21,414 nucleotides of DNA, from positions 1 through 21,414 of IMG/VR virus record IMGVR_UViG_3300027983_000139, one strand, 5' to 3'. Positions 1,806 to 4,955 of this stretch are shown here, in pieces. Under the pieces are notes generated by a model. That model made no database searches and was not told where the DNA came from. It saw only the letters and a list, made by a program, of their open reading frames with translations. The stretch is from a virus. The translations under genes and the position numbers were made by a program. Positions within the stretch are counted from its first letter, which is position 1. The number at the start of each line of letters is the position of its first letter.

Positions 1806-2669
1806 ATGAGTAGTTTTTTAGAAAAGTACAAAAGACAACCTAAAATTTATATCGACCTACCTAGCAAGGGTGTGTTCTATTCAGATGATGTTTTAGACAA
1901 CGGGCAGTTTGTAAGTTTGCCTGTGTTTGGTATGAGTGCTATGGATGAGATTATTTTTAAGACTCCGGATGCATTATTTTCTGGAGAAGCTACTGCACAA
2001 GTTATTAGGAGTTGTATTCCGGGAATATTGAATCCCTGGGAAATAGTTGGTTACGATTTAGATTATTTGTTAATATCAATTCGCATTGCAACTCACGGTG
2101 ATGCAATACCAGTTAATACATCATGTCCGCATTGTAATGAAGCAACACAAAGTCAAATTAATTTATCAGGGCTGTTGGCAAATTTTGCCAACTACGACAT
2201 TAGAGAAAAATTTGAGATTGGTGATTTAACATTTAATCTCAAACCTATAACTTATAAAAGAACTACAGATTTTGCTATCGAACGTTATCAGCTTGACAGA
2301 GCAATTGTCCAAATTGAAAAAGAAAAATTAACACAAGACGAAAAAAATACACTACTTAATAAGTTATTACTAGACATTACTACATTAAATCTTAGATTAG
2401 CAGTAGCACACGTTGAGTCAGTACAAAACGGTGATGATATTGAAATAGAATCAGATACTATCTATAAATTTGTATCTGAAAATGATGCTGAGTTTTATTC
2501 AAAATTACAACAAGGCATTAAAACATTAACTGAAAAATGGAACTTACCAGCATTTGATGTTGCTTGTGCAAGTGAAACATGTAATGAAGTTTATAAGACA
2601 AGACTGGACTTGGACTATTCAAGTTTTTTCGCGCCACGCTCATCCCTCTCGAGGAATCTCAGATTTTAG
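1806..2669 (+). CDS. gp26: gp26-like baseplate hub / tail assembly protein (zero-frame product)
   Basis: The 287-residue protein starts with ATG six bases after AAGGA. It has the conserved opening of the T4 gp26-type baseplate hub family (short basic N-terminus, then LPSKG, then a segment around residues 45-75 rich in hydrophobic and Pro/Gly positions). Two cysteine pairs, CPHC at 107-110 and C254/C259, could bind one metal ion. In T4, gp26 works with gp28, gp29 (tape measure) and gp51 in assembling the central hub; the tape-measure-like gene next door fits this. The zero-frame stop at 2667 follows a short tail of basic and serine-rich residues that looks non-native, whereas the -1 frame continues with a well-formed helical domain, so this is probably the short form of a two-product gene. 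The family call is from memory of its sequence pattern. Confidence 0.72.
   Translation: MSSFLEKYKRQPKIYIDLPSKGVFYSDDVLDNGQFVSLPVFGMSAMDEIIFKTPDALFSGEATAQVIRSCIPGILNPWEIVGYDLDYLLISIRIATHGDAIPVNTSCPHCNEATQSQINLSGLLANFANYDIREKFEIGDLTFNLKPITYKRTTDFAIERYQLDRAIVQIEKEKLTQDEKNTLLNKLLLDITTLNLRLAVAHVESVQNGDDIEIESDTIYKFVSENDAEFYSKLQQGIKTLTEKWNLPAFDVACASETCNEVYKTRLDLDYSSFFAPRSSLSRNLRF
2624..2630 (+). other. Predicted -1 ribosomal frameshift site (T TTT TTC)
   Basis: The heptamer TTTTTTC sits exactly in the X XXY YYZ phase of the gp26-like frame (AGT TTT TTC, codons 273-275). A one-base backward slip leaves both tRNAs paired with TTT and resumes at CGC (2630), which opens 77 further codons. No strong downstream hairpin or pseudoknot was evident by eye; short complementary pieces (CCTC/GAGG) occur 15-25 bases downstream. 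Confidence 0.6.
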
Positions 2670-2863
2670 CACTAGCTAAAGATTTTGAAAATGATATCAA
2701 ACAAATAAAAGACGATGCTTATCGGCTTGGTTGGTATATGAGAGGAAGTTTTAGTTACGAAGATCTAATGTTTAGGATTTCTAATGAAGATAGAGAGATC
2801 CTAAACAGGATCATCAAAGAAAACATTCAAGCTACAAATGATACTAGGATGCCGTTACTTTAG
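2630..2863 (+). CDS. -1 frame extension of the gp26-like gene (frameshift product C-terminal domain)
   Basis: The -1 frame is open from 2597 to a TAG at 2861-2863. After the slip site it encodes 77 acidic and basic, helix-forming residues, including a RLGWYMRG motif followed by SFSYEDLMF and an ILNRIIKEN helix. This pattern resembles the C-terminal domains of hub assembly proteins in marine T4-like phages. The first ATG in the frame (2738) lies inside the WYMRG motif, and in-frame stops at 2582, 2585 and 2594 block an upstream start, so independent initiation is unlikely. Fused by frameshifting, the long product would be 352 residues. The arrangement mirrors the lambda G/GT tail chaperones, where a minority -1 product bridges to the tape measure. 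Alternatives are a missing T in the T run (sequencing error or mutation) or a non-AUG start. Confidence 0.62.
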   Translation, partial: RATLIPLEESQILALAKDFENDIKQIKDDAYRLGWYMRGSFSYEDLMFRISNEDREILNRIIKENIQATNDTRMPLL

Positions 2864-3710
2864 CAGCTTTGAGCATAGCAAGTAATTTTGGATCGTTCAT
2901 TACCATATCTTTTGAGGCAGCTTTAATTTGTGAAACAGATTCTTGTAATCTAAATTCAATAGCTTCGTCAATTGATTCAGTTGCACCATCACATTGCGGG
3001 AAACTTAGACTAGATAATGTTTCCTTGCTCAACATGGTGTTTGCAATAAAATCACTAATTCCATTAATAATTCCAGTATCTTTAGCAAGTTTACCTAATA
3101 GATATGATATAGCTATACCACTTGCGCCGCCAATAATTGATAGGACCCAGCCAAAGCCAGGAACAACAGTAAAGAATCTTGTTAGCATTGCTAACGAAGC
3201 TGCGGTTGATGCGCCAACTGTTAAGAAACTAACTAAGCCGCCAGCAATATTATCAGTTATTCTAAGTTGAGGAGCATTTAATTCCGGAGCATTAATATTA
3301 CATTTGTTTGCTGCATACACATTTGCATATGTGTCTAAGTCAGTCGATAGTTGTTTAAAAGAAATTAGTGCTCCTATTACTCTTCCTACCGGTGATGATA
3401 AAAATAAGTTATACATAGTTTTGCCAGGCGATTTAACTATTTGTTTAACTGCTTTTTTAACTTTGCTGACAGACTTAGGTGCCTCAGGCTGAGTAGTAAC
3501 TGGTAGCGCCGGAGTATTACTTGGTTTAGGAGCAGCTACATTTGATTTTGCAGTTAAGTTTTTTGCTTTTGCATCTGCTTGTCCACGAATACGTTCTTTA
3601 CCAACAACAGCACCAGTTGTAGGATCTATTATATTAAATACTCTATTCCGACCAGATCCTGCTCTGACTACTGCATAATCTACTTCTGCTAATATGTGAT
3701 GTACTTTCAT
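2844..3710 (-). CDS. Late-expressed protein with a Gly-rich membrane hairpin, function unknown
   Basis: This 288-residue protein starts with ATG at 3710, preceded by AAGGAT eight to nine bases upstream and a GATAAATAAC late-type element. Residues 1-45 form a compact basic domain; 46-90 are a Lys/Pro/Ala/Thr linker; 100-118 are moderately hydrophobic; about 154-206 form two adjacent hydrophobic Gly/Ala/Ser-rich helices separated by a Pro-Gly-Phe-Gly turn, i.e. a membrane hairpin with glycine-zipper character; the C-terminus is an acidic-basic amphipathic tail ending in KAAKVTAS. No signal peptide is apparent. I do not recognise the family. Late promoter type and position between structural genes suggest a virion or lysis-stage membrane protein, for example one involved in DNA ejection. 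Its 3' end overlaps the convergent frameshift ORF by 20 bases. Confidence 0.8.
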   Translation of the reverse strand: MKVHHILAEVDYAVVRAGSGRNRVFNIIDPTTGAVVGKERIRGQADAKAKNLTAKSNVAAPKPSNTPALPVTTQPEAPKSVSKVKKAVKQIVKSPGKTMYNLFLSSPVGRVIGALISFKQLSTDLDTYANVYAANKCNINAPELNAPQLRITDNIAGGLVSFLTVGASTAASLAMLTRFFTVVPGFGWVLSIIGGASGIAISYLLGKLAKDTGIINGISDFIANTMLSKETLSSLSFPQCDGATESIDEAIEFRLQESVSQIKAASKDMVMNDPKLLAMLKAAKVTAS

Positions 3711-4309: not shown

Positions 4310-4735
4310 TTAGGAATTTTTTTTAAGATGTTCTTTGAGAATGGTTGATCCGCCAACTCTAACATTGATAATACCATTGTAGTATTCATCTGTTTCGAGT
4401 ACTCTACGTTCAAACTGTTCACGGGCCTCTAAGTAACTTGCTATGCCTCTGCTGGGACAAAAATGTAATATTTCACGTGTGAAATTTTCTGCGCCTAACT
4501 CTAAAACGTCTGCGTTAAGTCTATCACTGGAGCCATAATATTCTCTCCAATCACTTTCCTTGGTGCTACGTCTTTTATTCTTCTTGCCTTTAAGCGGGGG
4601 TTTAGTTACTTTAAACTTTGCTAGTTTCTTGCCTACATACATCATGCTATTGGATAGATTTGTTATCAAGTATACAAATGCTTCACATCCTTCCGGAAGT
4701 TCGTCTAGTTGTTTACCTTGATAAGTCCAATGCAT
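4310..4735 (-). CDS. GIY-YIG nuclease-like protein
   Basis: With the ATG at 4735 the protein has 141 residues; an upstream in-frame ATG at 4783 would add 16 basic residues overlapping the preceding gene without a ribosome site. The protein has the GIY-YIG layout: a first strand FVYLITN, a second strand MMYVGKK, a basic insert, then WREYYGSSDRL, an NFTREIL strand, a helix with LEAREQFERRVL carrying the likely catalytic glutamate, and the terminal YYNGI segment seen in stand-alone phage GIY-YIG proteins. Such enzymes cut or nick DNA, and many are mobile homing endonucleases (Seg type in T4). It follows the 70-residue gene by seven bases, so it is probably cotranscribed with gp46. Recognition site and activity are unknown. 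Confidence 0.72.
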   Translation of the reverse strand: MHWTYQGKQLDELPEGCEAFVYLITNLSNSMMYVGKKLAKFKVTKPPLKGKKNKRRSTKESDWREYYGSSDRLNADVLELGAENFTREILHFCPSRGIASYLEAREQFERRVLETDEYYNGIINVRVGGSTILKEHLKKNS

Positions 4736-4742
4736 AACATAC

Positions 4743-4955
4743 TTATTTTGCCTTTTGCTTCTCAGCCGCCTTCTTGGCTGCATAAGCTATATGTATTTCT
4801 TCTTGCCTTAATTTTGCTAACCTTCTAATCTCACGCAACCATTTTCTACTTGCTAGATGTGTTCGATGAGACAAACGAGACTCAAAATTCTCGTTTGCCT
4901 TAAAGTACTCTAAGTAAGCCTTAGTTAACTGATCGTGTATGTCGTCGTTAATCAT
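4743..4955 (-). CDS. Small basic helical protein downstream of gp46
   Basis: This 70-residue protein has its ATG overlapping the gp46 stop region by four bases (ATGA-type coupling), so it is probably translated with gp46. It is almost entirely helical and strongly basic: an acidic-to-neutral first helix (KAYLEYFKANENFE), a central Arg-rich helix (SRKWLREIRRLAKLRQEE) and an Ala/Lys tail. Similar small basic proteins with a KAxxxFE start and a repeated LxxLxxxRxxEI pattern are common in T4-like marine phages, without a known function. Nucleic acid or partner-protein binding would fit the composition, but that is inference. Confidence 0.72.
   Translation of the reverse strand: MINDDIHDQLTKAYLEYFKANENFESRLSHRTHLASRKWLREIRRLAKLRQEEIHIAYAAKKAAEKQKAK

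Follow-up and report, generated by a model that had tools for sequence, protein, structure and literature searches.

The gene studied here raises the question of whether one reading frame, or two, is used to make its protein product. It lies in a 21,414-nucleotide stretch of viral DNA (IMG/VR record IMGVR_UViG_3300027983_000139; hereafter the window) and ends shortly after a run of six Ts, and the –1 frame remains open beyond its stop codon. An earlier note on this DNA had proposed a programmed –1 frameshift that adds a C-terminal domain to a gp26-like tail assembly protein. We found that this proposal is very probably right: with this gene, a T4-like marine myophage, probably a jumbo phage, would make its tail-assembly chaperone in two forms, a short form of 287 aa and a –1 frameshifted form of 352 aa.

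A slippery heptamer lies in phase near the end of the gene

Within the 287-codon ORF at 1806-2669, the zero-frame codons at the heptamer read AG[T] TTT TTC, and there are 13 codons, stop included, from the heptamer to the zero-frame TAG that ends at 2669 (Table 1). The open –1 frame extends from 2597 to 2863, and the product of a slip would have 275 + 77 = 352 aa. Between the upstream stop of the –1 ORF and the fifteenth codon after the heptamer, the window has no ATG, GTG or TTG in that frame. The phase and coordinates of the heptamer, its distance of 13 codons from the stop, the extent of the open –1 frame and the absence of a usable start all agree with what had been reported earlier. The window is AT-rich and TTTTTTC alone is not rare in it (11 occurrences vs 9.5 expected); for a heptamer that coincides with a long open –1 frame where a gene ends, the simulated chance is about 6.5e-5. 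A second in-phase heptamer, T TTT TTA, is found at 1814-1820 near the start of the same gene, where it covers Ser-Phe-Leu codons.

Table 1. Features of the chaperone locus in the window.
Feature	Position	Strand	Remarks
T TTT TTC slippery heptamer; next base G	2624-2630	+	In –1 slippery phase; T6 in phase at 73/75 loci
Zero-frame ORF, 287 aa; probable short (G-like) tail-assembly chaperone form	1806..2669	+	PF12322, phrog_150, conserved Cys
–1 frame extension, 77 aa + stop; predicted T-like C-terminal helical domain of the 352-aa form	2630..2863	+	
Short-form-only tail APRSSLSRNLRF + stop, overlapping the –1 frame (putative dual coding)	2631..2669	+	
Tape-measure-like gene running off the window edge, ≥577 aa	3..1733	–	Divergent from chaperone gene

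The heptamer and the frame change are kept in distant relatives

We collected homologues from IMG/VR and from annotated phages, and the zero-frame ORF of each was located by profile search. The earlier note had suggested aligning homologues as a check on its proposal, and we found that an in-phase T6 heptamer near the zero-frame stop, together with an open –1 extension of 57–80 aa, is present at 73 of the 75 distinct homologous loci. The survey set comprises 40 clusters at 60% and 15 clusters at 40% protein identity; its loci are not phylogenetically independent and some were retrieved via the extension itself, and one IMG/VR search and the search of phage records used the zero-frame protein alone as query. 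Among the 73 loci, the T run is exactly six long in 70, and the seventh base of the heptamer is C in 70 (TTTTTTC) and T in 3.

The survey includes the jumbo phages RaK2, 121Q, Munch, GAP32, CBB, BF, PA5oct, Atu_ph07, Phosso, XacN1, SCTP-2 and Vibrio phage 2.275, as well as cyanophage S-PM2, pelagiphage HTVC008M and KVP40; by inspection, the same arrangement was seen in Delftia phage phiW-14 and Sinorhizobium phage phiM9. In the jumbo phage records (L007-L016, L019, L020), the extension appears as a separate hypothetical protein or is omitted (PA5oct, RaK2), and none of these records fuses it to the hub gene. In two phages, we found an extension-like reading in the +1 (= –2) frame: Rhodothermus phage RM378 (L037, ~2000-2270), where the match is marginal (E 0.015), and the uncultured phage LR756508 (L036, ~2220-2550), where the match is significant (E 5.8e-6 in a tiny search). 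These may be other types of frameshift or, for LR756508, an assembly error.

The heptamer is constrained and the extension evolves as protein

To describe selection we used 56 marine relatives whose extension matches that of the window in length. The sequence TTTTTTCG (T TTT TTC G) is invariant in 56/56. The base preceding the two Phe codons is always T, while the residue encoded there can be Ser, Asn, Asp, Thr, His, Arg, Ala or Tyr; in the rest of these genes, 38% of codons end in T. An invariant T despite a varying residue indicates a constraint on nucleotides and phase that goes beyond Phe-Phe. Downstream of the zero-frame stop, pN/pS is 0.38 in the –1 frame (832 pairs) as compared to 0.92 and 1.40 in the other phases; judging from these ratios, the –1 extension evolves as protein and is under purifying selection. 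Taken together, the survey and the pN/pS of the extension support the view, already put forward in the earlier note, that the 287- and 352-residue products form a frameshift pair.

The tail of the short form may have a role of its own

In all 34 marine relatives with a long overlap (11–14 codons) between the frames, the motif SR[NTS]L is kept in the short-form tail (34/34). Three Ser and three Arg codons are used for this motif across the 34 relatives, and the residues encoded by these bases in the –1 frame differ (LEES, LSES, LSEP, LSDS, LSQS, LTDS, LSQP). The constancy of SR[NTS]L with varying codons points to a protein-level role of the short-form tail in the marine clade, as judged from these related sequences. 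In the long-overlap clade, the third positions of –1 codons carry 1.27 bits of information in the overlap and 0.85 after it; the corresponding values in the short-overlap clade are 0.45 and 0.55. The AF2 model predicts the short-form tail to be disordered (pLDDT < 50 at residues 277-287). The putative dual-coding stretch is about 36 bases long (window 2631-2666).

We consider it an even call whether, in the marine clade, the tail translated after the slip site, which carries SR[NTS]L close to its end, has a function of its own and both frames over these bases are selected. If this is true, the short form would not merely be a truncated long form and would carry a signal absent from the long form. 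The earlier impression that the zero-frame tail looks non-coding is contradicted by the protein-level constraint in related marine phages.

Family membership and predicted structure

The zero-frame ORF is a member of the Pfam family T4_baseplate (PF12322; E 3.3e-10, 40.5 bits, cut-off 24.5) and matches phrog_150 (baseplate hub). Four cysteines are conserved in the short form (C107, C110, C254 and C259) and give a CxxC...CxxxxC pattern, a putative zinc ribbon. Each of four complete frameshift-type phages (S-PM2, HTVC008M, KVP40, XacN1) has one PF12322 match, and T4 has two. T4 gp26 (208 aa) ends in ...KEFFELL, i.e. at the FF position, and T4 gp51 (249 aa), which is a single ORF, continues beyond this position into a C-terminus that resembles the –1 extensions. 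When profiles were compared, the extension set that includes jumbo phages matched the T4-like extensions, gp51 C-terminus included, with a probability of 88.8%; the marine-only extension set gave no significant match to the T4-like extensions (3.6%). The window's own extension had no convincing match in Pfam and PHROGs, and no match to a chaperone family; in extension set A2, 6 of the 16 sequences hit phrog_18291 (best E 8.8e-38), for which no function is named.

The AF2 model of the short form has a pLDDT of 86.1 and that of the extension, at 86.8, is a helical domain, which is what the earlier note had expected of the –1 frame. Against a viral structure library, the short form hit T4-like proteins of baseplate hub assembly (best E 1.4e-19), and the extension gave only weak hits (best E 0.028). 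In the PDB, Foldseek found no match to the short form at E ≤ 0.001 and a sequence search found no significant match; the Foldseek matches of the extension, when re-examined, were only middling matches to histones and other helical proteins (best Z 4.1). Over 83 residues, the part of the short-form model at 131-245 aligns with YqbN (3klu) at Z 6.1, and YqbN has been described as a tail-assembly chaperone (PMC9603447); because unrelated helical chains reach similar Z, we take this match only as supportive.

Neighbouring genes

The tape-measure-like gene lies divergent from the chaperone gene and not directly downstream of it. Its product is 46.7% identical over 424 residues to that of a 758-aa gene of the related locus L004, which sits between a gp26-like gene and a 581-aa portal-like gene. 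It also weakly matches the genes at the same position in GAP32 and RaK2, and the annotation of the RaK2 gene points to similarity with a tail tape measure protein. No Pfam or PHROG family matches the gene, and tape-measure-like here refers to length, position and weak similarity. The earlier claim of an adjacent tape-measure-like gene on the opposite strand is borne out in part: the position is the one at which jumbo phages have their tape-measure or virion structural gene, beside the portal gene, and the weak similarity agrees with it, but there is no family match.

On the minus strand, the gene at 2844-3710 encodes a protein of 288 aa that matches no Pfam or PHROG family and is also present in L004 (282 aa); this gene and the extension, which lie on opposite strands, share 20 bases at their 3' ends. 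A SegE-like GIY-YIG homing endonuclease gene at 4310-4783 (minus strand) lies beside gp46/gp47-like genes, and the PHROG label 'NAD synthetase' for its family looks like a naming error.

Alternative explanations and the proposed mechanism

The –1 ORF could instead be a separate small gene with its own start, as several jumbo phage records list it, and at some loci an ATG is found soon past the heptamer. However, 42 of the 73 loci, including the window, lack a start codon in the –1 ORF between its upstream stop and the fifteenth codon after the heptamer, and the conserved FFR residues precede any start; a separate gene would also leave the third-base and phase conservation of the heptamer unexplained. 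We therefore regard a separate gene as very unlikely. Slippage of RNA polymerase on the T run, which would give mRNAs one base shorter, is suggested by the homopolymeric nature of the site. Reported bacterial slippage takes place on about nine consecutive A or T (PMC5009743), and because the run here is one of exactly six Ts at nearly all loci, transcriptional slippage is less likely; the prevalence of C as the seventh base and a codon phase that is always that of tandem slippage also speak against it, and we give it only a slim chance.

Homopolymer errors are common, and a T lost in sequencing or assembly would split one continuous ORF; the earlier note had named seven Ts at 2624-2630 as one observation that would overturn its proposal. 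In three other assemblies (L001-L003), the heptamer has six Ts and both it and the encoded protein are identical to those of the window, which excludes a lost T in the window. The identical frame change is present in isolate genomes, e.g. KVP40, S-PM2 and RaK2. Because independent genomes carry the same site and frame change, sequencing error was rejected, and we consider its probability negligible.

We favor ribosomal –1 frameshifting at the heptamer. Most ribosomes would terminate at 2669 and give the 287-aa short form, and a minority would move back by one base at T TTT TTC, where both Phe tRNAs would re-pair in the –1 frame; these slipped ribosomes would produce the 352-aa long form, with its helical domain at the C-terminus. 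If lambda gpG/gpGT is a guide (PMC5009743), the portion common to both forms would cover the tape-measure protein and the extension would bring in subunits of the tail tube. RNAalifold found no consensus structure around the heptamer in the 56 relatives or in the 34 with a long overlap, the mean fold z there being –0.4 to –0.9, and an upstream Shine-Dalgarno-like motif was found in only 2 of the 56. Given no conserved RNA structure or SD-like element, the heptamer alone, or undetected elements, would set the efficiency; some phage frameshift sites are not known to need a stimulatory RNA element.

Comparison with known systems

Apart from T4, long noted as the exception, long-tailed phages conserve G-T frameshifting (reviewed in PMC5009743). 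According to PMC10885494, which cites Vladimirov, Gautam and Davidson (2022, Virology 566:9), some T4-like phages instead have a short gene and a long fusion gene. The earlier note was unsure whether frameshifting had been described for T4-like gp26 relatives; because PMC12846349 attributes polyT slippery sites in the chaperone genes of T4-like phages to Vladimirov et al. 2022, this class of chaperone frameshift is already known and not new. An open-access literature search found no paper joining jumbo, frameshift and tail assembly chaperone. The details that appear to be new are that the long form is split or omitted in jumbo-phage records, that the SR[NTS]L tail is conserved in the marine clade and that two distant phages seem to have a +1/–2 arrangement.

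These data support a simple picture of the T4 superfamily, with one frameshifted chaperone gene in most members examined and two genes in T4. Jumbo and T4-like genome records hold truncated or split chaperone annotations, and most miss the frameshift; this can be fixed by the rule of an in-phase TTTTTTC with a –1 extension of about 57–80 aa, and cultured members, e.g. KVP40 and 121Q, allow direct testing.

In lambda, the slippery site of G/GT is G GGA AAG, unlike the T TTT TTC of the window. The lambda gpG/gpGT pair of tail-assembly chaperones was reportedly described by Xu, Hendrix and Duda in 2004. As in lambda, the chaperone gene of the window would give a short form and a –1 frameshift long form, with the shift near the 3' end and a C-terminal extension, and by analogy would share the functional link to the tape measure gene (reviewed in PMC5009743). 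In contrast to lambda, the short form is much larger and has the Cys ribbon, and the tape measure gene is divergent; no sequence similarity is shown between lambda gpG/gpGT and the window chaperone. The Vandenendeviridae/Andersonviridae chaperone (phage Adele, GTTTTT motif; PMC12846349) is from a different phage group and likewise has a conserved –1 frameshift, a T-rich site and an extension missed by annotation. T4-like gp26/gp51 belongs to the same PF12322 and follows the same short/long principle, with polyT sites credited to T4-like members as noted above; the window and its relatives have one gene with a frameshift, whereas T4 has two genes. The comparison of T4 gp26 (short) and gp51 (long, one ORF) with the frameshift relatives suggests that this family behaves as the lambda G/GT pair does.
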